Below are positions 11,401-32,832 of a DNA stretch of 64,000 bases, piece after piece (position 1 is the first letter of the stretch; each line of letters opens with the position of its first letter). The notes beneath the pieces were generated by a model. That model saw nothing but the letters and a program-made list of their open reading frames with translations, was not told the origin of the DNA and did no database searches. Where the stretch lies: positions 3,410,001-3,474,000 of the forward strand of contig NZ_FNSO01000004.1 of the NCBI RefSeq assembly GCF_900105945.1. The letters run 5' to 3'. Both the position numbers and the translations under genes were made by a program. The DNA is from Amycolatopsis tolypomycina. GTDB taxonomy: Bacteria; Actinomycetota; Actinomycetes; Mycobacteriales; Pseudonocardiaceae.

Positions 11401-14400
11401 TAGGAGCCGAGGTCGCCGCGCACCGCCGCGGGCAGGGCCAGCTCGGCCAGCACGGTCTGCCCGACGCCCGGCTCCTCGGACAGGTGCAGCGCGACCAGGG
11501 CGGCGAACGCGTCCCCGTGCCGGACACCGGCCCCGTGGAACTTGGCGTAGGCCGCCCGCGGGGACAGTGACCCGGGGTGGGCGGCGAGCAGCCCGGCGAC
11601 GTCGAGCCGGTCCGGCTCGGCCGCCGTGCGCACCCGCAGGGTCCCGGTGGCCAGCAGCGTCGGGTCCTCGCCGTCGCGGCGGGTCAGCGACTCGAACCGC
11701 ACGACGCCGTCGCCCGCGGGGCGCGTCCGCGAGGACACGACGGTGTGCTCGTCGAGGTGCAGCATCTCGTGGATGGTCAGGTCGGCCACTTCGACCGTGT
11801 CGAGGCCGGCGCCGAACACGGTCTTCGCCGCGGCGAGGCCCATTTCGCAGTAGGCCGCGCCCGGCAGCACCGGCTGGTCGTGGACCTGGTGGTCGGCCAG
11901 GTAGCGCAGGTCGCGGCCGCTGATCGTGGCCTGCCAGGTGTGCTCGTCGCCGGCGTCGACCGGGTGGACGTGCACGCCGAGCAGCGGGTGCGCGTCGACC
12001 CGCGCGCCGGGCTTCCGCACCCGCAGTGCCAGCACGCCCAGGTCGGTGCCCGCCCACGCCGGCAGCGGCACGTCGACCAGGTCGCCCGCCGGGTAGGCGC
12101 GCGCCCAGTCGACCGGGACACCGCTGCAGTGCAGGTCGGCGAGCCGGGGCAGCAGGCCGGTGGACTGGTCGCCGTCGCGGCGCAGGGTGGGCACGGCCGT
12201 CGCGTCGCGGCCGATCGACTTCGCCGTTTCGGTGATCGCGTGGATCAGCAGCGGGTGCGGGGACAGCTCGACGAAGATCCGGTGCCCGTCCAGCACGGCG
12301 GCGGTGACCGCGTCGGCGAAGCGGACCGGACGGCGCAGGTTGTGCACCCAGTACCCGGCGTCGAACGCGGCGGGCTTCTTCGGGTCGTCCAGCACGGTGC
12401 CGTAGACCGGCACGGTCGCCGCGGCCGGGGCGAGGTCCTCCAGCCGCTCGGCCAGCTCGTCGAGGATCGGGTCGACGTGCGGGGAGTGTGAGGCGTAGTC
12501 CACCGCGATCCGGCGGGCGTGCAGGTCGCGGGCCTCCCAGCCGGCCACCAGTTCGTCGACCCGGGCGGGGTTGCCCGCCACGACCGTGGATCCGGCGGAG
12601 GCGATCACCGCGACGGTGACGTCCTCGATGCCCGCGGCGGCCAGCTCGGCCGCGACTTCCTGGTGCGGCAGCTCGATGGTGGCCATGGCGCCGCCGCCCG
12701 CGATCCGGGTGATCAGCCGGGACCGGCGGCAGATCACCTTCACCCCGTCGTCGGGGGCCAGGGCGCCCGCGACCACCGACGCGGCGGTCTCGCCGAGCGA
12801 GTGCCCGATCACCGCGGCGGGCTCGACCCCGCGCGACCGCCAGGCGGCCGCGAGGGCGACCTGCACGGCGAAGATCGTCGGCTGGACCTTCTCGATGCCG
12901 GTGACGGTCTCGTCGGCCACCAGCTCGGCACGCACGGAGAACCCGGCCTCGCGGGCGATCAGCGGCTCCAGCTCGTCGATCATCGCGCCGAACGCGGGCT
13001 CGGTCTCCAGCAGCACCCGGCCCATGCCCGCCCACTGCGAGCCCTGGCCGGAGAACACCCACACCGGCGCCCCGCTGTGGCTGCCGACCGTGCCGGACAC
13101 CAGGCCCGGCGCGGGCCGCGCCGCCGCGGCCGCGGTCAGCTGCCCGGCCAGCTCGCCGTGCGACGACGCCAGGGCGACGAGCCGCTCCGCCCGGTGCTCC
13201 CGGCCGCGGGCGAGGGTCCGGCCGATGTCGGCCAGCGGCACCGACCGGCCCGCGTCCGACAGCCACTGCGCCACGCGACCCGCGGTTTCCGCCAAGGCCT
13301 GCGGGGTGCTTCCGGACAGGAGGACGGGAAACGCTTTCTCCGCCGGGGCGGGGAGCACGACCGGAACCGCGGTGTCCGGGGCTTCTTCGAGGACGACGTG
13401 GACGTTGGTGCCGCTGAACCCGTAGGAGGAGACCGACGCCAGCCGCGGCGAGCCGTTCGCGTGCCACTCGCGCAGCTCGGTGGGGACGTACAACCGCGTC
13501 CCGTCCGGGGAGATGTCCGGGTTCCATTCGGTGAAGTGCAGATTGCCCGGAATCTTCCTGTGCCGCAACGACATCACGGCCTTGATGAGCCCGGCCACGC
13601 CGGACACCGACTCGGTGTGCCCGATGTTGGTCTTGACCGAGCCCAGCGCGCACGGCTTGTCGCCCGCGCCGTACACGGCGGACAGCGCGCGGAACTCCAC
13701 CGGGTCGCCGGTGGGCGTGCCGGGCCCGTGCGCCTCGACCAGTTCGACCGCGGACGGGTCGACGGCGGCGGCGCGCAGGGCGCTGCGCTGCACGGCTTCC
13801 TGCGCGGTCGCGGAGGGGACGACGATGTTGTCGGAGCGGCCGTCGGCGTTGGCCGCCGAGCCGCGGATGACGGCGAGGACCCGGTTGCCGTCGCGCAGTG
13901 CGTCGTCGAGCCGCTGCAGCGCGACGACCGCGCACCCCTCGCTGCGGACGAACCCGTCGGCCGCGGCGTCGAACGCGGCGCACCGGCCGTGGGGCGAGAG
14001 CATCGACCACTGCGAGAACAGGACGCCGACCTCCGGGCCCAGCTGCAGCATCGCCGCGCCGGCGAGAGCCAGGTCGGACTCCCCGGCACGCAGGCTCTGG
14101 CAGCCGAGGTGCACCGACAACAGGCCCGAGGAGCAGGCGGTGTCCACGGCCACGGCGGGCCCGTGCAGCCCGAGCAGGTAGGACACCCGGCCCGCGCCGA
14201 CGGAGTGCGCGTTGCCGGTCATCACGTACGGGTTGTCCACGAGCGAGTCGTCGAACGTCCGCAGCAGGTAGTCGTGGTGCGCGAGGCCGAAGAAGACACC
14301 GGTCTGCGACCCCTTGAGCGAACCGGGCGCGATGCCCGCGTGCTCCAGCGCCTCCCAGGCCACCTGGGTCAGCATCCGGTGCTGCGGGTCCATCGCCTCG

Positions 14401-14696
14401 GCTTCGTACTCGGTGATGCCGAAGGCGGCGGTGTCGAAGCCGCCGATGTCGTCGAGGAACCCGCCCCAGCGGGACACGGTGCGGCCGGGCACGCCGGGTT
14501 GCGGGTCGTAGACCTCGTCCGCGGCCCAGCGCTCCGGCGGGACCTCGCGGACGGCGTTGCCGCCGCGCTCGAGCAGGCTCCAGAGCCCGGCGGGGGAGTC
14601 GATCCCGCCGGCGAACCGGCACCCGATGCCCACGATCGCGATCGGCTCGACGGCGGCGCCCCGCCTCTGGTCGGTTTTGGTGGTGGTGTCAGGCAT
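8418..14696 (-). CDS. type I polyketide synthase, KS-AT-DH-ER-KR-ACP
   Basis: This 2092-residue single-module, fully reducing synthase carries KS (about 18-440; Cys188 in DTACSSG, His323 in EAHGPGT, His360 in NIGHTE), AT (545-825; Ser633 in GHSLGE, and YASH at 734-737, which usually indicates methylmalonyl-CoA), DH (900-1190; His936, Asp1107, Gln1111; the Gly of HxxxGxxxxP is Asp940), ER (1395-1720; nucleotide motif HSATGGVG), KR (1740-1925; GGLGGLG, Ser1874 region, Tyr1888, VDD suggesting B-type) and ACP (2005-2090; Ser2046 in GLDSL). There is no loading domain or thioesterase. The layout resembles mycobacterial MAS/Pks2-type iterative enzymes, so it probably makes a reduced, perhaps methyl-branched chain. 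The start at 14696 overlaps the P450 stop by eight bases. Confidence 0.95.
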   Translation of the reverse strand: MPDTTTKTDQRRGAAVEPIAIVGIGCRFAGGIDSPAGLWSLLERGGNAVREVPPERWAADEVYDPQPGVPGRTVSRWGGFLDDIGGFDTAAFGITEYEAEAMDPQHRMLTQVAWEALEHAGIAPGSLKGSQTGVFFGLAHHDYLLRTFDDSLVDNPYVMTGNAHSVGAGRVSYLLGLHGPAVAVDTACSSGLLSVHLGCQSLRAGESDLALAGAAMLQLGPEVGVLFSQWSMLSPHGRCAAFDAAADGFVRSEGCAVVALQRLDDALRDGNRVLAVIRGSAANADGRSDNIVVPSATAQEAVQRSALRAAAVDPSAVELVEAHGPGTPTGDPVEFRALSAVYGAGDKPCALGSVKTNIGHTESVSGVAGLIKAVMSLRHRKIPGNLHFTEWNPDISPDGTRLYVPTELREWHANGSPRLASVSSYGFSGTNVHVVLEEAPDTAVPVVLPAPAEKAFPVLLSGSTPQALAETAGRVAQWLSDAGRSVPLADIGRTLARGREHRAERLVALASSHGELAGQLTAAAAARPAPGLVSGTVGSHSGAPVWVFSGQGSQWAGMGRVLLETEPAFGAMIDELEPLIAREAGFSVRAELVADETVTGIEKVQPTIFAVQVALAAAWRSRGVEPAAVIGHSLGETAASVVAGALAPDDGVKVICRRSRLITRIAGGGAMATIELPHQEVAAELAAAGIEDVTVAVIASAGSTVVAGNPARVDELVAGWEARDLHARRIAVDYASHSPHVDPILDELAERLEDLAPAAATVPVYGTVLDDPKKPAAFDAGYWVHNLRRPVRFADAVTAAVLDGHRIFVELSPHPLLIHAITETAKSIGRDATAVPTLRRDGDQSTGLLPRLADLHCSGVPVDWARAYPAGDLVDVPLPAWAGTDLGVLALRVRKPGARVDAHPLLGVHVHPVDAGDEHTWQATISGRDLRYLADHQVHDQPVLPGAAYCEMGLAAAKTVFGAGLDTVEVADLTIHEMLHLDEHTVVSSRTRPAGDGVVRFESLTRRDGEDPTLLATGTLRVRTAAEPDRLDVAGLLAAHPGSLSPRAAYAKFHGAGVRHGDAFAALVALHLSEEPGVGQTVLAELALPAAVRGDLGSYGMHPVLLDGCLQTLAAHPALIRDAFPVGAGALRVHRDPHRARYCLARLRRLDEQLAVGDVALLDEDGAVVAEVTGIRLATTDRRLAERLLAVGWDRADFPQPAAAAGPWLVLTEPAAAPEPFAAELTSALGAGTTHLTLDVTADDLEAHLATQAPQGLVVVCPAPTGTAGHDAVERAQRRVKRLIGLVRSLVERTDGHRPRLWVLTRDAQQVGAGDGLNLEQTALRGLCRVIGHEHPELAICHLDTDAATAPRRVAELLGANGDADEVALRGGELFLARLKVAPLHDGDRRVRPIRHGRDRYALAARHAGDLGSLELVAAEPRALAPDELEIRVEAFGLNYADVLNAMGLYKTVDGSPMPFGFDCAGTVVAVGADVTAFRAGDRVAAMHPGAFHAFAVVPACKANRIPDDVTFAAAAARPSVFATAWYGLHRLSGLGAGERVLIHSATGGVGLAAIAVARHLGAEIYATAGTDAKRQYLRDLGIEHVFDSRSTDFADRIRELTGGEGVDVVLNSLTGAAQRAGLDLLRIGGRFVELGKKDIYADARIGLFPFRRNISLHSVDLGVLPYEHLGGILREVHELLAAGALTPVPHTTYPLAEAASAFRTLASGGHVGKLVLAVPQHGEGEAVVRPDDVPVIRADGAYVVTGGLGGLGLIIARWFAGEGAGRVILNGRSAPSTEAQATIDELRAGGADIEVVRGDIAAAGTAGELVRAATATGLPLRGVVHAAAVVDDAAITGVDDALVERVWAPKVRGALRLHEACADSELDWWFGFSSASALVGFAGQACYASANALLDGLTTWRRGHGLPALSVNWGAWAEHGRGTMFADRGNAMIDPDEGVKACDALLRRDRARAGYLAILDAGWQAMFAEKIRTSPFFAAIPADRDADQGGDTAGYPVLAELRTADPAARQRFLEQHLTAHAAEILRVDAAGLDPDRSLTDHGLDSLMALELSTRINREFDIRVTPKQMRQDASPSALAAHIVARLDLGAAQ

Positions 14697-18766: not shown

Positions 18767-18772
18767 TAGGGT
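18767..18772 (+). promoter_or_regulatory. -10 box of the CHAT cassette
   Basis: TAGGGT lies 23-29 bases before the two candidate GTG starts, giving a short leader with a GAGGGGG ribosome binding site. No clear -35 box. Confidence 0.4.
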
Positions 18773-18789
18773 GCGGTGGGAGCGAGGGG

Positions 18790-20103
18790 GTGGCGGTGAC
18801 GGGAACGAGCAAGCCCCGGCTGCGCTCCACCGTCCTCGCGGCGGCGTGGGCGCGGATCTCCGGCGTCGAGGTGCTCTCCTCCGGCGACGGCGGCCCGCTG
18901 ACCCGCACCGTCAAGAAGATCATCGACCCGCTCGTGGTGCGCACCTCGACGCGGCCACGGCTGGGCCGCCCGCTGCTGGAGCCCGCCGACGCCGCGGAGC
19001 TGACCCGGCTCCTGCTGGCCGACGCGGCCCGGCTCCGGGCAACAGCCGCGTGGTTCCCGCACCTCAAGCGGCAGCGCCGGGCCCTGCGGATCACCGCGGG
19101 CGACGTCCAGGACGTCTGCTTCCCCCTGGCGTACGAGCTGGCCACGAGCTTCGGCATGCCGGGGCCGGACGCGCCGGAGGCGGCCGCGTCGGCGTTGCGC
19201 GAGCTGCACGGCGAAGCCGCGGAAGCCGGGGTCGCCCGGCTGGCCGCCTACCTGAACGATCCGCGGGTCACCGCGGACCTGACCGCGGAGCTCGACCGTC
19301 GCTGGCACGCCGGGGCGGACACCGGTCCCGAGCCGGCTGCCGCCGTGGCGTTGCTCGGCGCGTTCGCCGAGGACCTCGCCGACGCCACGTGGCGGGCGCT
19401 GGCGGAGTCCGGCGCCGGGCACGCCTTCGGGCTCGCCTTGCGCCGTCCCGGCGGAACCGGCGCACTCGCCGAGGCCGTCCCCGGCCTCGGCGACCTCGGC
19501 CTGCAGCGCGGGGACCGCACCGCCGTCCCGCCGCTGCGCCGTCACGACGAAACCGGCCCCGAACTCCTCGAACGCAGTGTCGAACGGCGGGTGCGCGCCA
19601 CCCTGCGCCGGCTGCCCGCCGACGAACGGGGGTCCGTCGCCGGGCTCGTCGGCGACGAGCTCGCCCGCGTCGCCGCCGGGTTCGGGCTCGGCCTGCCCGT
19701 GCTGGCCACGTGCTTCGCGCTCGGCGTCGTCCTCGCACCCGCCCTCCGGCCGCTCGAGGGCAGTGCGCCCGGCAACGCCCCCGGGTTCGCGCGGCAGCTC
19801 AACGCCAGGGTCGCGCGCGAAGGCTACGTGCTGCACGCCCGCCGGGCGCTGGCCGGCACCACGCCGCTCACCCCGCGGCCCGACGCCGAACTCGTGCGCG
19901 AGCTGCGGGAGTTCGCCCGGCAGTTCCTCGGCAGGCTGTGGATCCGGCTGCACGGCTTCGACGTCCGCGGCGACCTGCCGTCCGACGCCGCCGATGTCCG
20001 GGACCTCGTCACCGGCGTGGTCCGCTCGACCTCCCTGGACCTGCGGACGAAGGTCCGCCGAGCGCTCGTGGCCCGGCTGCCGGACCTGGAGGCCGTGTCG
20101 TGA
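18790..20103 (+). CDS. unrecognised protein, first gene of a CHAT-protease cassette
   Basis: I do not recognise this 437-residue protein. It looks mainly helical, Ala/Leu/Arg-rich, with no signal peptide. One hydrophobic stretch (about 294-318, GFGLGLPVLATCFALGVVLAP) could be a buried helix or a single membrane segment. Conserved-looking parts are KKIIDPLVVRTSTRPRLGRP near 43-61 and the C-terminal RLHGFDVRGDLP. A GTG six bases downstream (18796) is better spaced from GAGGGGG and may be the true start. It overlaps the second gene by four bases, and the third gene follows one base after that, so the three products are probably made together. Caspase/TPR conflict systems described in the literature also have unnamed partner proteins; membership is possible but unproven. 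Confidence 0.75.
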   Translation: MAVTGTSKPRLRSTVLAAAWARISGVEVLSSGDGGPLTRTVKKIIDPLVVRTSTRPRLGRPLLEPADAAELTRLLLADAARLRATAAWFPHLKRQRRALRITAGDVQDVCFPLAYELATSFGMPGPDAPEAAASALRELHGEAAEAGVARLAAYLNDPRVTADLTAELDRRWHAGADTGPEPAAAVALLGAFAEDLADATWRALAESGAGHAFGLALRRPGGTGALAEAVPGLGDLGLQRGDRTAVPPLRRHDETGPELLERSVERRVRATLRRLPADERGSVAGLVGDELARVAAGFGLGLPVLATCFALGVVLAPALRPLEGSAPGNAPGFARQLNARVAREGYVLHARRALAGTTPLTPRPDAELVRELREFARQFLGRLWIRLHGFDVRGDLPSDAADVRDLVTGVVRSTSLDLRTKVRRALVARLPDLEAVS

Positions 20104-21110
20104 CGCACCCGGTGCACACCCCCGTCGTCGCGGCGGACGGCGGGCTCGTCCACTTCGGACTGGCCGAGCTGCTCGCCGGCACTCCGGCGTCGATGCGGAT
20201 CGAACTCACCGACGCGACGGCCGCGGAACCGTGGCTGACGCGGCTCGTCGGCGCCGACCACGCGCCGGCGGCGCTCGAAGCCGGGCACGTGGACGTGCCC
20301 GCCCGGCCGGAACCGGCCACCCTCGCGCTGCTGCTGTGGGCCCGCCGGTGGTGGCCGGCGAGCCCGGTGCTCGGGGTGCCGCCGCTGGACCCGGCGCTCC
20401 TGGACCTCGAGGCCGCGGTCGCCACGGCGGCGGTCGACGACCTGGCCGAGGGCATGCTCGACGGCTTCGAAGCCACGCCGGGCGAACTGTTCGACGCCGC
20501 CGCGGACGGGATCGCCGCGACGGCGGTCCCCGAGGAGGTGCGCGACCTGTGCCTGCGGTTGTCGGCGTGGTTCGACGACCGGGACGACGTCGTGCGCGCC
20601 GAAGCCGCGGCCGCGCTGGCGGCGGCTTCGGCCCCGGGCCGTCGGGCCTACGCCCTGGCCGCGGGGGCCGGCCCGCAGGCGACGGGCGAGGGGGTCGTGA
20701 CCGGGGGCCGGGCGAGCGTCGACTGGGCGCGGGTGCCCCCGGGCGTCCTCGACGCCGCGGAGGACACGGTGACCTGGCGGATCGTCGCCGCCCCGGCGGC
20801 CACCCGGCTCGAGGTCGAGGTCGACGGCGCGTTCGCGGACGCGGCCCTGACCGCGTTCGCGACCGACGACGGGGCGGTGTTCGCGGAGGTTCCCCTGCGG
20901 CTCGGCCCCGGCCGGTTCACCGGCGCCGTCGACCTGGCCGCCGTCCCCACCGGCCACCTCGGGCTGGTGGTGGGCGTGACGGCCGAGAGCCTCGCCGAAA
21001 CGACGCCGGCGGACCGGGCCGAAGTCGTGTCGCTCGTGCGGGCGCGCGAGGCCCTGGCACCGGTGGCGCGGACGCTGGCCGAGCGCGCGGCGGGCGCGGC
21101 GGAGTTCTGA
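20100..21110 (+). CDS. unrecognised protein, second gene of the CHAT-protease cassette
   Basis: I do not recognise this 336-residue protein. The N-terminal third (VVAADGGLVHFGLAELLAG, RIELTDATAAEPWLTRLVG) looks alpha/beta. The middle is helical and acidic. The C-terminal 110 residues (WRIVAAPAATRLEVEVDGAF, AVFAEVPLRLGPGRFTGAVDL) alternate in a way typical of a beta-sandwich, perhaps an Ig-like domain. It has no membrane segment. The GTG start overlaps the stop of the first gene (GTGA), and its own stop is one base before the GTG of the CHAT gene. Tight coupling suggests it binds or regulates the protease, as adaptor or target, but that is inference from position. Confidence 0.78.
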   Translation: MTHPVHTPVVAADGGLVHFGLAELLAGTPASMRIELTDATAAEPWLTRLVGADHAPAALEAGHVDVPARPEPATLALLLWARRWWPASPVLGVPPLDPALLDLEAAVATAAVDDLAEGMLDGFEATPGELFDAAADGIAATAVPEEVRDLCLRLSAWFDDRDDVVRAEAAAALAAASAPGRRAYALAAGAGPQATGEGVVTGGRASVDWARVPPGVLDAAEDTVTWRIVAAPAATRLEVEVDGAFADAALTAFATDDGAVFAEVPLRLGPGRFTGAVDLAAVPTGHLGLVVGVTAESLAETTPADRAEVVSLVRAREALAPVARTLAERAAGAAEF

Positions 21111-21111
21111 C

Positions 21112-24100
21112 GTGCTCGCCGGGATGCCGCCGCCGCTGAACCCGCCCGACCGGCCACTGCCCGCCGAACTGGCCGGGGCGACCTCGCACGGCTACAACTG
21201 CCGGTGCGTCGCCGTCCACTTCGGACTGGACCCGCAGCCCTACGGTGTGCTGCCCGCGTGCTCGCTCACCGAAGCCGAGTACGCGGAGCTGTTCGAGCAG
21301 GCCCTGGAGATCCAGCGGGCGGCCAAGCAGCTCGCCGCGGCCAGGGACGTCACCGGTGCGCACCGGGAGTACGGCAGGCTGCGGCAGCTCGCCCACCGGC
21401 TCGACCGGACCGATCTCGAACTCGCCGCCGTCAGCGACCTGGCCACGGTCTGCTATTCCGCCGGCGACCTGCACAACGCGCGCCAGTGCGCGGAGGCGGT
21501 CCTGAGCGCGTTCCGGACCAGCGTCACCGGTGTTGTCCACTTCGGACAGTACGCGGAAATCCGGATGCTGGAGGGTTCTCGCGAGGTCGCCGACCGCGTG
21601 CTGATCTCGCTGGCCACCGAGGAGGGCGACGTCGCCAAGGCCGCCGAACTGATCGCGGGACAGCGGCACCGGGCGGCGCTGCGCAAGGCGGCCGAGCCGG
21701 GGCAGTACCCGCGCGGGCTGCTCGACCCGCACGGCGCCGACGAGCTGACGCTGCGCATTCTCGAGGCACGCGTGCAGGCCGCCGCCGGGGACCCGGCCGG
21801 CGCGCTGGCCGCACTCGAGGAGATCCTCGTGGCACTGGCCGCCATCGCGGACATCGACGAGGTCCGCGACCAGGTGGCGTCGCTGCGGGCGATGGCACGC
21901 GCCGAACGCGCCCGCCTCCGCCGGGCCGGTGGCGAGGACGCCGACGCGCGGGCGGACCTGGTCCGGCTCTCCGCGCAGCACGAGGGCAGGCCGGCGGCCG
22001 CGAAGTTCGCCGTCGACCTCGCCGCGGACCGCGCGCTGGGCGGCGACTTCCCCGGTGCGGTGGCCGCGCTCGTCGCCGCCCGCGACGAGCTCACCGCGGC
22101 CGGCGCGACCGGTGACGTGGCGGAGGCGAGCCACGCGCTGGGGGCCCTGCTGCTGATCGCCGGTGACGCGCGGCAGGCGCGTGAGCAGTTCGCGCACGCG
22201 GGCGAGATCTGGAAGTCGAACGGGGACACGCCGGCCCTGCGACGGCTGGACGTCGCACTCGCCCGCTGCGCCGCCGCGGAGGAGGACTGGGCGGCCGCGG
22301 AGGAACACGTGCACCGCGCGCGGGAATCGGCGCGGGCGTCAGGGGACTGGCTGCAGCGCCTGCACACCGACTTCGCGGCGGCCGGGATCGGCTTCGCCCG
22401 CGGGGACGACCTGCCGGCGGTGCTGGACCTGCTGCTCCCGGTGGCACTGGCGGCGGCGGACTACCGGTTCGAGTTCGCGTCCCCGCGGGCACGCACGGCG
22501 TGGGCGCGCGACGTCGCCGGCCCGGCGACCGAGCTGCTGATGGTGCTGCTGGCCCGGCTGCGGGAACCGAGGCTGGCCGCCGAACTGATCGAGCGCACCT
22601 GCGCGGTCGGGGCGTACACCGGAGCCGAGGCGCCGGCCCTCGACCTCACCGGCACGCTGCCCGCCCCGGAACCGGCCCCGCCCGCCGCCGGACTGCCCCT
22701 GGCGGCATTGGGCACGGTCACGGCGGCTCTCCCGCTGCGCCTGGCCCCGCCGCCCGCGCTGCGGTGGTCGCCGGCCGCGCCGATGCGGCTCGAGCGCTGG
22801 CTCGACGTCGCCGCCGCGCGGTACGGCCTGACCCGGCCGGCCACCGATCCCGTCGCGACCTGGCCGGCCACCGGAACCGAGACGTTCCTCCTGCGCTACG
22901 CCGACGCCGGCCACACCTACCTCAGCTGGCGGACGACCGGCGACCTCGACACCGTCCACACGCACCCGGTCGACGCCGCGCTGGTCGCGACGGCCCGGGA
23001 GCTGCTGGCAGCGGCGTCGCCGACCCCGCGGGAAGGCGAGAGCGTCGCCGACGCCGTGCGGCGCTCGCTCGGTGACGACGCCTTCGGCAGCTTCGACGGC
23101 GAACAGCGGCTGGCGCGCATCCTCGCCCTCAACCTCCTGCCGGCCGACCTCGTCGCGCGGCTGCGGGCGGCGGCCGACGGCGGACGACGGCCGGTGCTGC
23201 GCGTGCAGCCGTCGCCGAGCCTCGCCGCGGTGCCGTGGGGACTGCTCGCCCTGCCCGACCGGCGGCCGGACCGCGCGCTCGAGCCGGGCGAGGAGGGCAG
23301 CTGTTTCGACGGCGACGACCGGGTTCTCGACGTCGCCGACGTGTCGCTGCTGGCGCCGGTCGGGATCCCGCGCCGGCCACCCGCGGCGGCCGGGCCACCG
23401 GTGTACGTGCTGGATCCGCGGATCCCGGGCCAGAGCGCCTTCGGCGAGCTGGGCTCGGTGCTGGGCAGGCAGGATCCGGAGTCACCGCTGATCCGGCACC
23501 TGGACGCGCGGCTCGCCGCCGGTCCCGTCCGGCCGGCCGCGGCGCGCGGGCTCGACCTGGTCCGCCGCACCGACACCGACCGGCGGCTGCTCGCCCGGCT
23601 GCCGGCCGAGCCGTGTTCCCGGCTGGTCTACGTCGGGCACGTCAGCCGCGTCCGCGACGACCACGGCGCACAGACCGCGCTGCACCTGTCCTGCGCGGCG
23701 GAGCTGCCCGGAACGGCCGAGCCGATCGGCGCGCACCGGCCCTTCACCGCGGCCGACCTGGCGTTGTCCGGACCGGGCTCGATGCCGGCGCGGCTGGCGC
23801 TGATCGGCTGCGCCAGCGCGAGCGACTTCGGCCTGCCCGAGCCGTTCGGCGTGCTGCTCGCCGCCGTCGCGGCCGGCGCGCGGCTGGTGGCCGCGACGGT
23901 GTGGGCGCTGCCGACGTCGGCGGCGGCGCCCGGCGCGGACCCGATGGCCGAACTGGTGATCGCCGTCGACACGGCTCTGGCCGGCGACGACCCGGTCGGT
24001 GACCTGTGCGGGTGGCAGCGCACCCGGCTCGCCCGGTGGCGCGAACGGCCCGAACCGGCCTGCTCGCCGGCGTTCTGGGCGGCCCTGACCTGCCTCGATG

Positions 24101-24132
24101 CCTCCGACGACGGGCAAACCCGGGTTCGGTAG
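21112..24132 (+). CDS. TPR-CHAT caspase-like protease, 1006 aa
   Basis: The first two thirds consist of helical, Ala/Leu/Glu-rich hairpins of TPR type (about residues 55-490, for example AAKQLAAARDVTGAHREYGRL and AGDARQAREQFAHAGEIWKSNGD). The C-terminal third is a CHAT peptidase-like domain: LRVQPSPSLAAVPWGLLALP near 695-715, the probable catalytic His843 in RLVYVGHVSR and Cys900 in ALIGCASASD, then the FGVLLAAVAAGARLVAATVWALP strand-helix after the Cys. In other systems TPR-CHAT proteins are proteases released or activated by a sensor (for instance the type III-E CRISPR partner). No CRISPR array or nuclease is near here, so the trigger must be something else. Both catalytic residues are present, so activity is expected. 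Confidence 0.85.
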   Translation: MLAGMPPPLNPPDRPLPAELAGATSHGYNCRCVAVHFGLDPQPYGVLPACSLTEAEYAELFEQALEIQRAAKQLAAARDVTGAHREYGRLRQLAHRLDRTDLELAAVSDLATVCYSAGDLHNARQCAEAVLSAFRTSVTGVVHFGQYAEIRMLEGSREVADRVLISLATEEGDVAKAAELIAGQRHRAALRKAAEPGQYPRGLLDPHGADELTLRILEARVQAAAGDPAGALAALEEILVALAAIADIDEVRDQVASLRAMARAERARLRRAGGEDADARADLVRLSAQHEGRPAAAKFAVDLAADRALGGDFPGAVAALVAARDELTAAGATGDVAEASHALGALLLIAGDARQAREQFAHAGEIWKSNGDTPALRRLDVALARCAAAEEDWAAAEEHVHRARESARASGDWLQRLHTDFAAAGIGFARGDDLPAVLDLLLPVALAAADYRFEFASPRARTAWARDVAGPATELLMVLLARLREPRLAAELIERTCAVGAYTGAEAPALDLTGTLPAPEPAPPAAGLPLAALGTVTAALPLRLAPPPALRWSPAAPMRLERWLDVAAARYGLTRPATDPVATWPATGTETFLLRYADAGHTYLSWRTTGDLDTVHTHPVDAALVATARELLAAASPTPREGESVADAVRRSLGDDAFGSFDGEQRLARILALNLLPADLVARLRAAADGGRRPVLRVQPSPSLAAVPWGLLALPDRRPDRALEPGEEGSCFDGDDRVLDVADVSLLAPVGIPRRPPAAAGPPVYVLDPRIPGQSAFGELGSVLGRQDPESPLIRHLDARLAAGPVRPAAARGLDLVRRTDTDRRLLARLPAEPCSRLVYVGHVSRVRDDHGAQTALHLSCAAELPGTAEPIGAHRPFTAADLALSGPGSMPARLALIGCASASDFGLPEPFGVLLAAVAAGARLVAATVWALPTSAAAPGADPMAELVIAVDTALAGDDPVGDLCGWQRTRLARWRERPEPACSPAFWAALTCLDASDDGQTRVR

Positions 24133-24182
24133 CAGCGCGTCCCGCCGAAGCTGTGTGCCCACACGGCGAAAGGCAGGGACCG

Positions 24183-24710
24183 ATGTTCAAGAAGATCCGC
24201 GACCGGGTCGACCAGGCGAGCCGCCGGGGTGCGGCCCGCGGCGCGCAGGAGTTCCGGCAGCACGCGGAGCAGTTCCGGCAGGAGGCCGCGGCCGAGGGGT
24301 ACGACATCACCCCGCAGCTGCCGACGCCGCAGCTGGCCGCGCAGGCGTTCCGGATGCTGAACGCCGACCCGGAAATGGCGGCGTTCCTGGCGCTGCCTGC
24401 CGACGAGCAGCTGCGCCAGCAGCAGGAACTGCAGGCCTACGGCACCGAACTGCGCCGCCTCTACGACACCGGCGAGCCGGCCACCCTGGTCGTGCGGGGC
24501 CTGGAGCCGACGCACCGGACGGTCGCCGGGCAGGCCCGGTACACCGCGACGCTGGAGGTCACCCGCGCCGACGGCACGACCTACCGGACGGTGACGCCGC
24601 TGATCACGCCGCTGGCGACGATCCAGCAGTACGCGCCCGGCACGCGGCACGAGGCCCGCGTCGACCCGGCCGACCCGGCGAAGGTCGCCGTGTTCGGCCC
24701 GATCGGCTAG
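24183..24710 (+). CDS. DUF3592-like soluble protein, 175 aa
   Basis: The N-terminal 60 residues are helical and charged (FKKIRDRVDQASRRGAARGAQEFRQ), probably a coiled coil. The C-terminal 75 residues form a small beta domain (PATLVVRGLEPT, ARYTATLEVTRADGTTY, GTRHEARVDPADPAKVAVFG) that resembles the DUF3592 fold found in the next gene. No membrane segment is seen. The ATG at 24183 follows AGGCAGGGA. It lies 50 bases after the CHAT gene and 7 bases before the next, so it probably belongs to the same transcript. Function unknown; it could carry the beta domain as a soluble counterpart of the membrane proteins that follow. Confidence 0.75.
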   Translation: MFKKIRDRVDQASRRGAARGAQEFRQHAEQFRQEAAAEGYDITPQLPTPQLAAQAFRMLNADPEMAAFLALPADEQLRQQQELQAYGTELRRLYDTGEPATLVVRGLEPTHRTVAGQARYTATLEVTRADGTTYRTVTPLITPLATIQQYAPGTRHEARVDPADPAKVAVFGPIG

Positions 24711-24717
24711 GGCGGCG

Positions 24718-25533
24718 GTGTTCGCCTTCGCCCTGCCGGAAGACCCGCGGCCGGACCGCGGGCCGGGACTCCGGCTGTGGCTGCTCGGGGTGCCCACGAC
24801 GCTCGCGTGGGCGGCGACGGGCTGGTCCGGGGCACTCGGGCTGCTGGACGGCTTCCGGTTGATGTCGCTGAACCGCGTCGGCGCGTGGGGGGCCGACGCG
24901 GGCCCGGCGGTGTCGCTGGTGCTGTTCTTCACCGTCGCCGTCACGGTGGCGTCGTCGCTCGGCTTCGCGATGCTGTGGGCGGCCGGGATCTCCCTGCGGC
25001 GGATGGGCGTCGGCTTCCGGGCGAGCTCCCTGGCCACGGCACTGGGCGTGGCGCTGGGCAGCGGCCTGGCGATCCCGTCGTGGACGCCGCCGGAGTCGGT
25101 GGGGCAGCGGCTGCCGGTCCCGGGCGGCGCGGCCGAGCCGTGGTCCGATGTGGACTGGGTCGTGTACTACGAGCCCTACCTCGTGCCCGCGGTGGCCGCC
25201 CTCGTGGCCCTGGTGCTGATCGTGGTGCTGGTGTGCGCCTTCCTCGCCGAGGCGGAGGCCGACGACCGCGTGCAGGCGCTGCGTCACCGCGGCCGCCAGG
25301 TGACCGGCTTCGTCACGCACGTCGAGTTCACCGACGTCTGGGTCATGGGCCACCCGCGGTTCGTCGTCCACGTCCGGTTTCCGACGGAGGCGGGGGAGCG
25401 CACGGTCGTGACGACCATGGTCACGTCCCTGTTCCAGGCCCCGGCCCGCGGTTCGGCGGTGCAGGTCCGCTACGACCCCCGCGACCCCGGCACGGTCCTG
25501 GTGGAACCGGCGCCTGCCGGGTCGTCCTGCTAG
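24718..25533 (+). CDS. DUF3592 membrane protein, 271 aa
   Basis: Four membrane segments are visible (about 18-42, 63-89, 102-119 and 153-176), followed by a cytoplasmic beta domain with the DUF3592 pattern (GRQVTGFVTHVEF, HPRFVVHVRFPTEAGERTVV, GSAVQVRYDPRDPGTVLVEP). It starts at GTG seven bases after the previous gene. DUF3592 proteins have no established function. Here three consecutive genes carry this type of beta domain directly downstream of a caspase-like protease, which may place the protease or its substrate at the membrane; that is an inference. Confidence 0.8.
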   Translation: MFAFALPEDPRPDRGPGLRLWLLGVPTTLAWAATGWSGALGLLDGFRLMSLNRVGAWGADAGPAVSLVLFFTVAVTVASSLGFAMLWAAGISLRRMGVGFRASSLATALGVALGSGLAIPSWTPPESVGQRLPVPGGAAEPWSDVDWVVYYEPYLVPAVAALVALVLIVVLVCAFLAEAEADDRVQALRHRGRQVTGFVTHVEFTDVWVMGHPRFVVHVRFPTEAGERTVVTTMVTSLFQAPARGSAVQVRYDPRDPGTVLVEPAPAGSSC

Positions 25534-25551
25534 AGCGGAGAGCGCTTTCAT

Positions 25552-26457
25552 ATGTCCAGTCCCGCCCGTCCGGCCGCCCTGCTGGCCGGCTTCCTCGGCG
25601 GCGGCGTCGCCGGGGCGACACTGAGTGCGTTCATCGCCGGCATCGTGCTCGAGAAGGCCCCGCTGATCCTCTTCGGCGTGGGCCTGCCGATCGGCTACGG
25701 CTTCCTGGTCTTCGTCGCGGGCATCCCCCGCCGCACCCGCGAGGCGGCGGTCGTTCCCCGCCTGGCGCTGGCGCGGATCGAGAGCCTGCGCGCGGGCGGC
25801 ACGGAGACGGGCGACGTCCCGGTCGACTTCGAGCTCACGATCGCCCCTGGCGGCGAGCCGCCGTTCCGCAGCCGGATGACCTCCGACGTGAACCTGGTCG
25901 ACCTCCCGCGTTATCGCCCCGGTGACGTCCTCGTGGTCGCCTACCCGCCGGACCGCCCGTGGCGAGCCACGATCGTCCCGAACCCGACGCCGGAGTGGCA
26001 GCACCGCGCGGCCGAAGCCGTCATCCGGCCCGCCCCCGAGTCCCCCGTGGTCCAGCAGCCCCCGGAGGGCTGGGGGTTCGCGCTGGCCGGCTGCACCGGC
26101 CTGCTCCTGGGCGCGGCCATCGTGCTCGGCCTGTTCCGCGTCGAGCTGTTCACCCCGCAACCACCGCCCGCCGAACAGCCGCCGGCGTCATCCTCGAGTT
26201 CCACCACGATCACCGTCGGCCCGCGGCAGGAGTTCCCGGACGCGGCGGAACTGCGCCGCACCATCGAGCTGCTGGCGGCAACCGCCCAGGTCCCGCTCGA
26301 CCGGATCCCCGAGCTCGCAGAGCAGGCGACGAGCGTCCTCGACGTCGGGTGGCCACGGAGCTGGCAGATCACGGTCACCAGGGCGGACGTCACCACGGTC
26401 CGCCTCACCGTCACCGGCCCCGGCGGCAGCGCGTCCCTCGTGCTGCCGCCGGGGTGA
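25552..26457 (+). CDS. membrane protein with DUF3592-like domain, 301 aa
   Basis: Two N-terminal membrane segments (about 9-32 and 36-58) are followed by a beta domain (DVPVDFELTIAPGGEPPFRSRM, RPGDVLVVAYPPDRPWRATIV) similar to that of the two preceding genes. A third membrane segment (about 173-195), a Pro/Ser linker (PPPAEQPPASSSSS) and a C-terminal domain of about 85 residues follow, the last probably outside the cell. The tail (ELRRTIELLAATAQVPLDRIPELAEQATSV) is helical, then beta. It has GGAGAG nine bases before the ATG and is the last gene of the plus-strand cassette; it converges with the kamA-family gene. Function unknown. Confidence 0.78.
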   Translation: MSSPARPAALLAGFLGGGVAGATLSAFIAGIVLEKAPLILFGVGLPIGYGFLVFVAGIPRRTREAAVVPRLALARIESLRAGGTETGDVPVDFELTIAPGGEPPFRSRMTSDVNLVDLPRYRPGDVLVVAYPPDRPWRATIVPNPTPEWQHRAAEAVIRPAPESPVVQQPPEGWGFALAGCTGLLLGAAIVLGLFRVELFTPQPPPAEQPPASSSSSTTITVGPRQEFPDAAELRRTIELLAATAQVPLDRIPELAEQATSVLDVGWPRSWQITVTRADVTTVRLTVTGPGGSASLVLPPG

Positions 26458-26481: not shown

Positions 26482-27870
26482 TCAGCTGGACCGGTTGGCC
26501 CACCAGGTCTGGCCGGCCTCGGGCAGCGTCGAGATCGGGTCGTAGTACGGGTACCGCCGCTGCAGGGCCTCCGGGTCCTCCAGCTCGATCCCGGTCCGGT
26601 AGTTCTTGGTCCAGTACGAGATCCCGAGCTCCCGGTCGTACTCGGCCAGCTGGTGCACCCACCGCTTGCCGACATACGGCACGTCGCACACGATCCGCGG
26701 CGTCGCATACCCCGGCAGGTAGCCCATGATCGCGTGCTGCAGCTCCTGTGCCTCGTGCACCGACACCCGCCAGTGCTCGGCGTTCGGGATCATGTCGCAC
26801 ATGTAGAAGTAGTACGGCAGGATGTTCGCTTCCCCCTGCAGCGCAAAGCAGAGGTCCAGCAGCGCCGCCGGCGTGGCGTTCACCCCGCGCATCAGCACGC
26901 CCTGGTTGCGCACGTCGCGGACCCCGACGTTCAGTGCCGTCTGGGCCGCCTCCGCCACCAGGGGGGTCACCGACTGGGCGTGGTTGACGTGGGTGTGGAT
27001 CGCCAGGTTCACCCCGCGGCGCTGGGCCGTTACGGCGACGCGCTCCAGGCCTTCCACCACCTTCGGCTGGAGCCAGTGCTGGGGGAGCGCCGCCAGTGCC
27101 TTGGTCGCCAGGCGGATGTCGCGGACCGTGTCGATGTCCATCAAGCGCATCAGGAACGACTCCAGCTGCGGCCACGGCACGTTGGCCACGTCGCCGCCGG
27201 ACACCACGACGTCGCGGACGCCCGGGGTCTTCTTGAGGTACGCGATCATCGCGTCCTGGCGGTCGACCGGTTTGAGGCTGAGCTTGTGCTTCTCCACCGT
27301 CTCCGTCGAGTTGCCGACCAGGTCCATGCGGGTGCAGTGGCCGCAGTACTGGGGGCAGGTCGAGATCATCTCGGCCAGCACCTTCGTCGGGTAGCGGTGG
27401 GTGAGGCCCTCCACCACCCACATCTCGGCCTCGTGCAGGGAGTCGCGTTCGGAATGGGGGTGGCTCGGCCAGACCGGGTCGCGGTCGGAGCGCACCGGGA
27501 GCATGTAGCGGCGGATCGGGTCGGCGTAGAACGCCTCGGTGACCTTGGCCGGGTCGGTGCCGGCCGTGGGGGCCATCGTGTTGAGCATCTGCGGGGGCAG
27601 CAGCATCGACATCGTCGCCATCTCGCGCTGGTCGGCGAGCAGGTCGTCGTAGAAGCGCTCCTCGAGCAGGTCGCCCATCAGGGCGCGCAGCTGCTTGACG
27701 TTGCGGACGCAGTGCACCCGCTGCCACTGGGCGTCACGCCACTCGGCTTCGGTCACGTCGTGCCAGCCAGGAAAGCGGCGCCAGTCGGGTTCCACCAGCT
27801 CGGCGCGGGCGTACTCGTAGGGCTGGTCGAAGGCGGCGGCAGGCGTCACAGGTTCCTGGATCGCAGTCAC
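26482..27870 (-). CDS. kamA: KamA-family radical SAM aminomutase
   Basis: The radical SAM cluster motif CxxxCxxC is CPQYCGHC near residue 174, followed by the glycine-rich SAM motif VVVSGGDVAN near 224. The protein has 462 residues, the usual length of lysine 2,3-aminomutases and relatives, which use SAM, a 4Fe-4S cluster and PLP to move an amino group. The PLP lysine is likely in the C-terminal part (MGYLPGYATPRIVCDVPYVGKRW). Actinobacterial members of this family are often annotated only as KamA-like, and the substrate (lysine, glutamate or a protein lysine) is not settled by sequence. The GTG start has AGGAG upstream. It is divergent from an amidohydrolase. Confidence 0.85.
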   Translation of the reverse strand: MTAIQEPVTPAAAFDQPYEYARAELVEPDWRRFPGWHDVTEAEWRDAQWQRVHCVRNVKQLRALMGDLLEERFYDDLLADQREMATMSMLLPPQMLNTMAPTAGTDPAKVTEAFYADPIRRYMLPVRSDRDPVWPSHPHSERDSLHEAEMWVVEGLTHRYPTKVLAEMISTCPQYCGHCTRMDLVGNSTETVEKHKLSLKPVDRQDAMIAYLKKTPGVRDVVVSGGDVANVPWPQLESFLMRLMDIDTVRDIRLATKALAALPQHWLQPKVVEGLERVAVTAQRRGVNLAIHTHVNHAQSVTPLVAEAAQTALNVGVRDVRNQGVLMRGVNATPAALLDLCFALQGEANILPYYFYMCDMIPNAEHWRVSVHEAQELQHAIMGYLPGYATPRIVCDVPYVGKRWVHQLAEYDRELGISYWTKNYRTGIELEDPEALQRRYPYYDPISTLPEAGQTWWANRSS

Positions 27871-29597: not shown

Positions 29598-31208
29598 GTG
29601 GCAGTCACCGTGGCGGACCCCGAACCGGGCGCCCCGCACCAACCCGCGCGCACCCGGCATTTCCCCCGCGCGTGGCTCCTGCGGCTGGTCACCGCCCTCG
29701 CGTCCGGGTTCGCCTTCTACCTCAGCTTCGCGCCGCGCCCGCTGTGGTGGCTCGCGCCCCTGGCGTTCGCCGGGCTGGCCCTCGTGCTGCGCGGACGCCG
29801 CTTCCGGGCCGGGTTCGGCTACGGCTTCGCGTTCGGGTTCGTGTTCTTCCTGCCGCTGCTGACCTGGCTGCTGGACTTCCTGGGCCCGGACTTCGGTCCC
29901 TGGCCGTGGCTCGGCCTGTCCTTCGCCTTGGCGCTCTATCACGGCCTGGCGGGTGGCCTGATCACGCTGGTGTCCCGCCTGCCGGCCGCGCCGCTGTGGG
30001 CCGCGCTCGTGGTCATCGCGCTGGAGACGCCGCGCGCGTGGTTCCCCTTCGGCGGCTTCCCGTGGGGCCGGGTCGCCTTCAGTCAGCCCGAGGGCGCGTT
30101 CCTGCCGCTGGCCTCGATCGGCGGGGCCCCGCTGGTCGGGCTGGCCGTCGTCCTCACCGGCTTCGGCCTGGCCGCATTCGCCGCCCGGCTGTGGGAAGTG
30201 CGCAAGCTCACCCGGCCCGTGGTCTTCGCCGCCCTCGGCACGCTGCTGCCCGTCGTCGCCGGGCTGGCGCTGTGGCCGGCGATCGGGACCGGCGCACAGG
30301 ACGGCGAACGCACCGTCGCGACCGTCCAGGGCAACGCCCCGGACATCGGGCTCGCGCTGCAGGGCGAGCGGACCGTGCTGCGCGACAACACCATCGCCGA
30401 GAGCCGCCGTCTGCTCGCGGACATCCAGGCCGGCAAGGTGCCCAAGCCCGACCTGGTGGTGTGGCCGGAGAGCGCCACCACCGTCACCGGCCCCGACCTG
30501 CAGGTCGACCAGCTCGTCGCGAACTTCGGGGTGCCGGCGCTGATCGGGGCCATCTACGAGCTGCCCGACCGGCACCTGCAGAACTCCGTCATCGCCTGGG
30601 ACCCGCGCACCGGGCCCGGCGCGCGCTACGCCAAGCAGCAGCTGGTGCCCTTCGGCGAATACGTCCCGGCCCGCAAGGTCGCCGAGCTGGTCACGCCGTT
30701 CCTCGACCAGGAAACGGTGGACATGGTCCCCGGCGACGGCGCGAACCAGACCATGGCCGTCGCCGGCACGAAGGTCGGCGTGTTCATCTGCTACGAAGCG
30801 GCGTTCGACTACCCGGCCCGCGACGCCGTGCGCGACGGCGCCGAACTGCTCGTCGTGCCGACCAACAACGCCTGGTACGGCGAGAGCGAGATGAGCGTGC
30901 AGCAGCTGGCGATGTCGCGGCTGCGGGCGGTCGAGCACGGCCGGGCCGTCGTGGTGTCGGCCGTCTCCGGGGTGAGCGCGATCGTCGCGCCCGACGGGAC
31001 GGTGACCAGCTCAACGGGCCTTTTCACGGCGGATTCCCTGGTCGGGCGCGTCCCGCTGCGGACGCAGACTACGCTGTCGGATCAACTAGGTGCGTGGACG
31101 GAGTACGGGCTGCTGGCTCTGGCGATCGCCGGGGTGGCCGGTGGGCTCGTACTCCGTTTTCGCACCCGGCGCGGCAGCGCCGGCACGGCAGGGGAAGCGG
31201 CGGACTGA
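29598..31208 (+). CDS. lnt: apolipoprotein N-acyltransferase
   Basis: Lnt transfers an acyl chain from phospholipid to the N-terminal Cys of lipoproteins on the outer face of the membrane. The first 240 residues hold about seven membrane segments (for example [38 protein letters not shown]). The rest is a nitrilase-like domain with the Glu in VVWPESATT, the Lys region [14 protein letters not shown] and the Cys in [18 protein letters not shown]. The GTG at 29598 is 11 bases after the amidohydrolase stop. The downstream ppm1 gene is 26 bases away; in mycobacteria these two activities are one polypeptide, here two genes. Confidence 0.93.
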
Positions 31209-31234
31209 CCGCCGCGGATATCGGAGGAGCAGGG

Positions 31235-32002
31235 ATGTCGCAGGCGCCGCGGGGGGCCCGGGAAATCGAGCCGGTGCTGGTGGTGATCCCGACCTACAAC
31301 GAGCGGGAGAACCTCGGCCCGATCCTGGACCGGCTGCACAAGGCGCTCCCGGACGTGCACGTGCTCGTGGTGGACGACGGCAGCCCCGACGGCACCGGCG
31401 AGCTGGCCGACGAGCGCGCCGCGGCCAACGACCACGTCCACGTGCTGCACCGCACCGAGAAGGCGGGCCTCGGCGCCGCCTACATCGCCGGGTTCCGCTG
31501 GGGCCTGGCGCGGGAGTACAACACGATCGTCGAGATGGACGCCGACGGCTCGCACGCCCCCGAGGACCTGCCCCGGCTGCTGGACGCCGTCGGGGACGCC
31601 GACCTGGCGATCGGCTCGCGGTACGTGCCGGGCGGCAGCGTCGTCAACTGGCCGGTCAAGCGCCAGGTCCTCTCCCGCGGCGCGAACATCTACTCGCAGG
31701 TCGCGCTCGGCATGCGGGTCCGCGACATCACCGCCGGGTTCCGCGCCTACCGCCGTCCGGTGCTGGAGAAGCTGGCCCTCGACGAGGTCAACTCGCACGG
31801 CTACTGCTTCCAGATCGACCTGACGATCCGCACCGACGAGGCCGGCTTCGAGATCGTCGAGGTGCCGATCACGTTCACCGAGCGCGAGATCGGCGAGTCG
31901 AAGATGAACGGCTCGATCATCCAGGAGGCGTTCCTGCGCGTGGCGAAGTGGGGCCTCGAGCGCCGCTGGCACCAGCTGCGGAAGCTGTTCAAGCGCGCCT
32001 GA
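31235..32002 (+). CDS. ppm1: polyprenol monophosphomannose synthase
   Basis: This GT2 family glycosyltransferase has 255 residues. [16 protein letters not shown] near residue 16 and [14 protein letters not shown] near 44 bind the nucleotide sugar, [13 protein letters not shown] carries the DxD-like metal site, and GSRYVPGG is typical of dolichol-phosphate mannose synthases. It makes the polyprenyl-phosphate mannose used for protein O-mannosylation and lipoglycan synthesis at the membrane. The sequence has no membrane domain of its own, matching the catalytic half of mycobacterial Ppm1; the membrane partner would be the adjacent Lnt. A strong ribosome binding site (GGAGGAGCAGGG) precedes the ATG. 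Confidence 0.93.
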
Positions 32003-32025
32003 GCCGTTTTCGCCCGTTCTGGGCC

Positions 32026-32832
32026 ATGATGGGCCCGGTGACGACCATCGTGGCCTTCCACGCGCACGCCGACGACCCCGTGCTGCTCACCGGCGGCACG
32101 CTCGCCCGGGCCGCGGCCGACGGGCACCGGGTGGTCGTCGTCGTGGCCACCGACGGCATCGCCGCCGAACACCCGACACCCCGCTGGGCCGAGCTGGAGG
32201 CCGCCGCGGCCATCCTCGGCGTGCACCGGGTCGTGCACCTGGGCTACGCCGACAGCGGCCACGGTCCCCAGCTCTTCGCGGACCCGCCGGGGCGGCAGCG
32301 CTTCGCCCGCGCGGACACCGAGGAAGCCGCCCACCGGCTCGCGGCCGTGCTGCACGAGGAGCGTGCCGGCCTGCTGCTCGGCTACGACGGCAACGGCGGC
32401 TACGGGCACCGCGACCACGTGAAGGTGCACCAGGTGGCCCGCCGGGCGGCCCGGCTGACCGGGACGCGGCTGCTGGAGGCCACCCTGCCCCGCGACTTCG
32501 CGCAGCGGTTCGTGCGGGTGGTCCGGGCGCTGCGGATCCCGTTCGACTACGACGCCGAGGCGCTCGGCCACGTCTACAGCCCGGCCTCGGCGATCACCCA
32601 CCGGTTCGACGTGCGGCGGTTCGCCGCGCGCAAGCAGGCGGCGCTGGCCGCGCACGTGTCCGACGTGCGCGGCACCGGGCGGCTCGCCGGCGTCCTGCGG
32701 GTCCTCGTGTGGCTGCCCGCACCACTGTTCGGGCTGGTGGCCGGGCGCGAGTGGTACGCCGAGGTCACGCCTTCAGGATCGCCACGCCCTGGTCTGCAAG
32801 TTCCTGCACGTTCTGGTCGTCGGCGTCGGTGA
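32026..32832 (+). CDS. PIG-L family deacetylase
   Basis: This LmbE/PIG-L fold zinc-dependent N-deacetylase has 268 residues. The N-terminal AFHAHADDPVLLTGG (H-x-x-D-D) and GYGHRDHVKVHQVA near residue 125 carry the metal ligands. Relatives act on GlcNAc-containing molecules such as mycothiol precursors and their conjugates. It lies 23 bases after ppm1, so it may share that transcript, although the substrate cannot be read from sequence. Starts at 32026, 32029 or a GTG at 32038 are all possible. Its last 22 codons overlap the 3' end of the convergent DeoR gene by 68 bases, and the tail (SGSPRPGLQVPARSGRRRR) does not look conserved. Confidence 0.85.
   Translation: MMGPVTTIVAFHAHADDPVLLTGGTLARAAADGHRVVVVVATDGIAAEHPTPRWAELEAAAAILGVHRVVHLGYADSGHGPQLFADPPGRQRFARADTEEAAHRLAAVLHEERAGLLLGYDGNGGYGHRDHVKVHQVARRAARLTGTRLLEATLPRDFAQRFVRVVRALRIPFDYDAEALGHVYSPASAITHRFDVRRFAARKQAALAAHVSDVRGTGRLAGVLRVLVWLPAPLFGLVAGREWYAEVTPSGSPRPGLQVPARSGRRRR

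Follow-up and report, generated by a model that had tools for sequence, protein, structure and literature searches.

We wondered whether a caspase-like protease gene and the five genes packed around it in Amycolatopsis tolypomycina represent one functional system and, if so, how this system compares with those already known. The genes lie in a stretch of 64,000 nucleotides (NCBI RefSeq assembly GCF_900105945.1, contig NZ_FNSO01000004.1, positions 3,410,001 to 3,474,000 of the forward strand; hereafter the window) of a 10.4 Mb genome. The six open reading frames (ORFs) are referred to as A, B, TC, D1, D2 and D3, where TC encodes a protein with a TPR half (T) and a CHAT protease half (C). TPR-CHAT proteases are known as effectors that are released by a sensor, and the original prediction had viewed all six genes as one cassette built around such a protease. 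We found that the conserved unit consists of A, B, TPR and CHAT and not of six genes. We observed conserved co-occurrence of these genes, a permuted order in some loci, repeated fusion and fission of TPR and CHAT, an invariant His-Cys dyad and recurrent membrane satellites.

Relatives of A were detected by profile in 32 of 150 genomes of the family (12 of 46 genera) and in 34 of 394 genomes of the class (7 of 138 genera), the own genome being included in both counts. Among named genomes, from which 80 of 182 stretches encoding A relatives were taken, A was found in Amycolatopsis, Nocardia, Rhodococcus, Streptomyces, Antrihabitans, Occultella, Goodfellowiella and one unassigned actinobacterium. 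All 31 foreign loci of the family genomes, 16 of the 33 loci of the class genomes, the loci of the named genomes and the window together gave 128 loci. Two of these had no callable A and six were duplicates, leaving 120, of which 109 are flanked by at least 5 kb upstream and at least 6.5 kb downstream. No more than six genes from A, B is present in 107 of the 109 loci, TPR in 105 and CHAT in 105, and 104 loci carry all four. Incomplete loci are L032, in which B was not called, L033, L040 and L046, which hold A and B only, and L048, which holds A only. The claim that the genes travel together, for which this test had been set beforehand, was thus borne out for A, B, TPR and CHAT but did not hold for the six genes as a set.

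Those loci of family genomes and named genomes that were mapped and hold all four genes show the order A-B-T-C, whereas the order is T-C-(n1)-A-B in all seven fetched loci of one genus, g47, with n1 denoting a satellite gene described below. Adjacency of the genes therefore reflects more than one frozen operon. We take g47 to be Mycobacterium, not from a label but from the names of some close A relatives, the lysX/infC/uvrA-like neighbours and the lipoprotein found there. Six of its seven fetched loci occupy one core place between uvrA-like and lysX/infC-like genes. The seventh, L167 in genome G493, has the T-C-A-B order without uvrA, lysX or infC neighbours, indicating that either the module or its flanks have moved. 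With gene starts as set by the gene caller, gaps of at most 5 bases (overlaps included) were found in 90 of 117 A-B pairs, 87 of 105 B-T pairs and 49 of 72 T-C pairs. TPR and CHAT form one protein in 36 loci, as they do in the window. Of 118 A proteins placed on a tree, 36 come from loci with T and C fused and 73 from loci with T and C as separate genes, and 9 from loci that lack one or both. The tree requires six changes of state, five of them forced by supported branches; T and C thus stay together whether joined or not. This tree is a quick one with long branches, and the pairing of Amycolatopsis and mycobacterial A proteins in it may be false. The TPR and CHAT genes of Rhodococcus opacus and R. 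koreensis are separated by an AhpC/AhpF-like peroxiredoxin-reductase pair (L111:14121-16451, the locus covered by the Pfam scan, and the same place in L118).

A module of this kind might serve anti-phage defense or abortive infection: A and B would sense the infection and free the CHAT protease, which would then kill the cell or switch on an effector in the membrane, in the manner of Craspase- or gasdermin-type systems. We regard this as rather unlikely. CHAT proteases do occur in conflict systems, and the own genome carries further CHAT genes, one of them by a TCAD9/STAND protein. The patchy distribution across genera, the absence of A from one of seven genomes drawn from the own genus, the decayed appearance of L033, L040, L046 and L048 and the deviating chromosomal place of one in seven mycobacterial loci would all fit such a role. 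In contrast, the shared place of the other six loci together with the presence of A in 20 of the 25 g47 genomes listed looks like vertical inheritance. The same core location is what one would expect of a physiological protease without any link to invaders, acting in quality control of envelope proteins or lipoproteins or in programmed death during development. Ordinary neighbours in the window, the lipoprotein and membrane satellites and the conservation of the TPR-CHAT protein, which shares 66-87% identity with 19 close relatives in an alignment, most of them labelled Amycolatopsis, are consistent with such a role. However, many close genera lack A, as do 5 of the 25 g47 genomes listed, and it is therefore not essential. 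Moreover, the TPR-CHAT architecture is elsewhere mostly tied to conflict systems, according to the relevant sections of PMC7159879, PMC8195603 and PMC12657218, and we consider a purely physiological protease unlikely.

The protease itself is poorly recognized by family models. Pfam finds only a weak TPR match (E 0.0092) in the TPR-CHAT protein of the window (21112-24132, 1006 aa). The Pfam CHAT model missed it in the protein scan as well as in a whole-genome CHAT search, which found 5 other places, and it also misses two further fused relatives (L119 and L135). Separate-gene CHAT relatives do match PF12770 (E 5.5e-12, 9.4e-09, 8.3e-09, 4.4e-08 and 3.2e-17), with 5 of 5 scanned lying over the curated cut-off. 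The C-terminal half of the window protein aligns with these Pfam-passing relatives, and His843 and Cys900 are unvarying in all 19 aligned sequences (window plus separate-gene relatives), so that this half is, as judged from the alignment, a real but divergent CHAT domain. An hhalign comparison of the window-type CHAT with six other CHAT proteins gave 86%, with the catalytic Cys in register. The dyad, which had been placed at exactly these two residues, is intact. Gly842, His843, Cys900 and Ser902, forming Gly-His and Cys-x-Ser motifs, are retained in 100 of 100 CHAT proteins while nearby positions vary; 75 of these proteins were chosen by profile alone and 25 by a length of >900 aa or a GHV[TS] motif and hence partly for the His. 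The 100 proteins derive from the window, the family-genome loci and the named-genome loci, the 16 class-genome loci being outside this count.

A CHAT domain could also act as a scaffold or binding domain in a module that cuts nothing. Indeed, about 70% of effector-position caspase domains in vWA proteins are described as inactive in the section of PMC7159879 that treats them, and the Amycolatopsis CHAT is divergent enough for Pfam to miss. However, the presence of His and Cys in all 100 proteins amid varying surroundings speaks against this, and we consider a non-cutting CHAT very improbable.

In 40 fused and 76 separate proteins, at most 13 residues follow the CHAT match, which leaves no room for a variable effector domain and weighs against an anti-phage function. 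The best TPR match precedes CHAT in 38 of the 40 fused proteins, L094 and L096 being the exceptions. Hydropathy flags short hydrophobic stretches in A and in the TPR-CHAT protein, which we take for buried helices. Near the N-terminus of the TPR-CHAT protein, residues 26-36 (window 21187-21219) read HxxxCxCxxxH, a possible metal site by its pattern; its His and Cys residues are invariant in 20 aligned close relatives, and the motif is present in 16 of 40 TPR proteins longer than 900 aa and in 1 of 80 shorter ones. Elsewhere in the genome, another CHAT gene (L057:1773-9867, C4 at ~3.91-3.92 Mb) lies near a TCAD9/STAND-type protein and looks like part of a known ternary conflict system, and the CHAT protein encoded at L061:9239-10492 carries an NPCBM-associated/CARDB-like part at its N-terminus.

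The first two genes had been reported to encode products that match nothing known. Searches of four family libraries agree with this, as neither A nor B matched any model of Pfam, NCBIfam, PADLOC or PHROGs at E values up to 1. By these profile searches, A and B are two partner families outside all models tested. A is basic (isoelectric point (pI) 10.1) and predicted to be all-helical, with a structure model at a predicted local distance difference test (pLDDT) score of 89.6, and we found no close solved structure matching it. Over 52 sequences, 56 positions of A are invariant, among them 12 Arg and 4 Trp. Among the 120 of 217 named A relatives that were listed, nearly all are annotated as 'hypothetical protein', apart from one 'alginate export' and one 'DUF1631', and the sole Pfam domain among the listed relatives is on P0079, a fragment with 42% coverage. 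B is acidic (pI 4.4). Its model (pLDDT 85.0) combines an alpha/beta and helical N-terminal part with a beta-sandwich at about residues 198-292, connected by a low-confidence link (180-190). The sequence of B contains WxxxWWPxS as an invariant motif, and its ALAxG segment at residues 185-189 lies inside this link. The opposite charges of the two proteins suggest that A may bind B.

The remaining three genes of the window encode proteins with similarity to DUF3592 (PF12158). In the protein scan D1, D2 and D3 match with E values of 1.2e-4, 8.7e-5 and 0.011, all three under the curated cut-off of 25.3 bits (23.1, 23.6 and 16.8 bits), while a genome search placed D2 over it (26.2 bits) and D1 under it (24.6 bits). 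D2 also matches Mu-transpos_C (8.1e-4) and the Rv1733c family (6e-4), both sub-cut-off. As predicted, two of the three proteins appear membrane-anchored, hydropathy giving transmembrane-like stretches in D2 and D3 and none in D1. The 10.4 Mb genome contains just 3 DUF3592 matches (E <= 0.001), and since D1 and D2 are two of them, DUF3592 is at this locus by more than chance. Duplicates not being removed, D1 and D2 occupy positions +3 and +4, after TC, in 23 loci each, these being Amycolatopsis loci, and D3 position +5 in 7. An alternative gene cluster, MFS by the one member scanned, takes +5 in 14 loci, and D3 was rejected as a core gene on these counts.

Other lineages carry other satellites. 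n1, a divergent gene with DUF3592-like domains, lies upstream in 54 loci (duplicates not removed) and within six genes in 73 of 109; its profile compares with those of D1 and D3 at 94.7% and 87.6% probability. A gene for a 19-kDa-antigen-type lipoprotein (PF05481 in two scanned) lies no more than six genes from A in 38 of 109 loci and often joins the module in Nocardia, Rhodococcus and mycobacteria; of the seven g47 loci, 6 have the lipoprotein gene and 3 have a gene labelled n1. A propeller-like membrane protein, n2, occurs in 15 of 109 loci (PQQ_2 at a sub-cut-off E of 0.0027 in one member scanned) and c10, a 141-residue protein, in 18 of 109, mainly in Streptomyces. Any DUF3592-like gene is present in 92 of 109 loci. 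Since these satellite profiles were derived from the neighbourhoods themselves, the Pfam DUF3592 model was used as an independent check (E <= 0.01) on 42 of the 64 foreign A-bearing genomes. It gave 45 matches in 26 genomes. Of these matches, 14 are no more than 10 kb away from A and come from 9 genomes of 4 genera, as compared to ~0.1 expected by a hand calculation; 33 of the 42 genomes have no Pfam DUF3592 match near A. The DUF3592-like genes are thus real but lineage-specific satellites, with D1-D2 in Amycolatopsis, D3 optional and others elsewhere. Their inclusion in the cassette was right in kind, given the 14 of 45 matches near A, but the identity of the genes varies by lineage and D3 is often absent. 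The suspected membrane link of the module is upheld by the recurrence of DUF3592-like and membrane genes around A.

The arrangement in the window is given in Table 1. A and B overlap by 4 bases (GTGA), a gap of 1 base separates B from the TPR-CHAT gene, and gaps of 50, 7 and 18 bases follow before D1, D2 and D3, respectively. The tight coupling described earlier was reproduced in coordinates and overlaps, and gene calling by codon usage returned the same six ORFs, the caller having been trained partly on those ORFs.

Table 1. Features of the module, in positions of the window.
Feature	Position	Strand	Description
Gene A (P0001)	18790..20103	+	437 aa; no family; predicted all-helical, basic; profile relatives and structure model
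Gene B (P0002)	20100..21110	+	336 aa; no family; acidic; predicted alpha/beta and helical N-terminal part, C-terminal beta-sandwich
TPR half (T) of P0003	21112..22866	+	about residues 1-585, boundary approximate; own gene in many relatives
CHAT caspase-like protease half (C) of P0003	22867..24132	+	about residues 586-1006; putative dyad His843 and Cys900
D1 (P0004)	24183..24710	+	175 aa; DUF3592-like C-terminal domain, no transmembrane stretch; retained in Amycolatopsis loci
D2 (P0005)	24718..25533	+	271 aa; membrane protein, DUF3592-like C-terminal domain; retained in Amycolatopsis loci
D3 (P0006)	25552..26457	+	301 aa; membrane protein, DUF3592-like domain; optional satellite

By Pfam, one flank of the module holds polyketide synthase/P450, TetR and MFS genes, and the other an ORF without family, an amidohydrolase and Lnt. 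No CRISPR-like repeat array was found in window 10000-34000, and none of the 12 window proteins that were scanned is a cas gene product, in agreement with the earlier view that CRISPR is missing from the locus. PADLOC and PHROGs gave nothing significant for the six module proteins (best matches Csx1 at E 0.51 and E 0.12, respectively), and the six genes flanking the module had no PADLOC match (E <= 0.01). All of this weighs further against an anti-phage function. Given these ordinary neighbours and the single core position of six of the seven mycobacterial loci, a mobile immune cassette is not supported.

Upstream of the module the window encodes a type I polyketide synthase as a single protein (8418-14696) with an adjoining P450 (14689-16023). 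Directly after D3 follows a 455-residue ORF on the opposite strand (26482-27849), for which neither Pfam (E 1e-5) nor PADLOC (E 0.01) gave a match. Further downstream (29598-32832) lie genes for an apolipoprotein N-acyltransferase (Lnt), a GT2 glycosyltransferase and a PIG-L deacetylase. Lipoprotein-modifying genes are thus located by a module that has a lipoprotein partner in other lineages, possibly by chance, as the gene patterns past D2 differ in other mapped Amycolatopsis loci.

How might the module work? Our preferred explanation, which we put forward at somewhat less than even confidence, is that A, B, T and C form one functional unit in which a CHAT protease on a TPR platform and two dedicated partners make up an envelope-tied signalling protease. 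The helical, basic A and the acidic B with its beta-sandwich would bind to one another or to the TPR scaffold, holding the protease off until a signal arrives. The complex would sit on the cytoplasmic side of the membrane. DUF3592-like proteins, which are D1-D3 in the window and n1 or others in different lineages, may tether it there, report the state of the envelope or be cut by it. Once activated, C would cleave a single protein or a few and thereby trigger a stress or self-limiting response. The satellites and the common core location of six of the seven mycobacterial loci favour such an envelope role. A more specific proposal is possible, if doubtful: actinomycetes, mycobacteria and nocardiae among them, would have a hitherto undescribed caspase-like surveillance module whose two new protein families, A and B, keep TPR-CHAT under envelope control via DUF3592-like proteins and, in some lineages, the 19-kDa-type lipoprotein. 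If true, this would be a bacterial caspase pathway triggered by envelope damage and not by nucleic acid or nucleotide signals. As the module occurs in culturable actinomycetes such as Streptomyces, trigger and substrate are directly accessible to experiments. The module also places DUF3592, a term found in a single paper of the literature searched, in a functional context.

Of the known systems, CATRA is the one to which the locus had been tentatively assigned. CATRA systems combine a CHAT protein with CATRA-N/CATRA-C and CATASP partners, as described in the pertinent parts of PMC8195603 and PMC12657218. A search of 246 class genomes located CATRA-C in 13 of them; nine loci were fetched and the proteins of three scanned. 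In L078, CHAT, CATRA-N/C and CATASP adjoin each other, the neighbour in L075 is a TPR-CHAT protein and that in L082 a WD40 protein. Both types thus place a CHAT protein (with TPR repeats in one scanned CATRA locus, and with TPR here too) beside two unrelated partner genes in actinomycetes, and these features favour a divergent CATRA member. However, the partners there are CATRA-N/CATRA-C and CATASP and here A and B, and in most of our loci TPR and CHAT are encoded separately; genes for DUF3592-like membrane proteins recur. At E values up to 1, the models of CATRA-N (PF20269), CATRA-C (PF20270) and CATASP (PF20271) recovered none of the six window proteins, nor A or B from L042 and L103. With the same library, CATRA proteins from two further genomes scored 2.5e-22 to 1.4e-50 and CATASP in L078, as a positive control, 1.8e-10. 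Against nine CATRA proteins, hhalign returned probabilities of 0.7% for A and 0.2% for B, and CATRA-C was not found in the own genome. Because CATRA loci have other partners and A and B lack profile similarity to them, the module is not CATRA; the assignment had to be abandoned, and even a divergent membership is extremely improbable.

Other TPR-CHAT and CHAT systems share single features with the module. Craspase, the type III-E CRISPR system in which the TPR-CHAT protein is Csx29, likewise joins a TPR platform to a CHAT protease but belongs with Cas7-11 and a CRISPR array, and the scanned parts of the window lack cas genes and arrays. In CHAT-gasdermin systems the protease adjoins membrane proteins that could be its substrates, as it does here; however, Pfam gave no gasdermin match in the six window proteins. 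The two-gene EACC1-caspase membrane system (Kaur et al. 2020) also pairs a caspase-superfamily protease with a membrane partner, the single-TM protein EACC1, but its caspase is N-terminal and followed by variable C-terminal domains according to the part of PMC7159879 that describes it, whereas CHAT is C-terminal or alone in our proteins. No EACC1-named match was among the Pfam matches of D1-D3 in a general scan, for which the presence of an EACC1 model in the library was not checked. Titles and abstract openings, most subscription journals being outside the search, yielded no literature on an A-B-TPR-CHAT module. We therefore place the module as a new variant of TPR-CHAT systems outside every named one: a broadly conserved TPR-CHAT unit with two model-less partner families and a recurrent membrane link.

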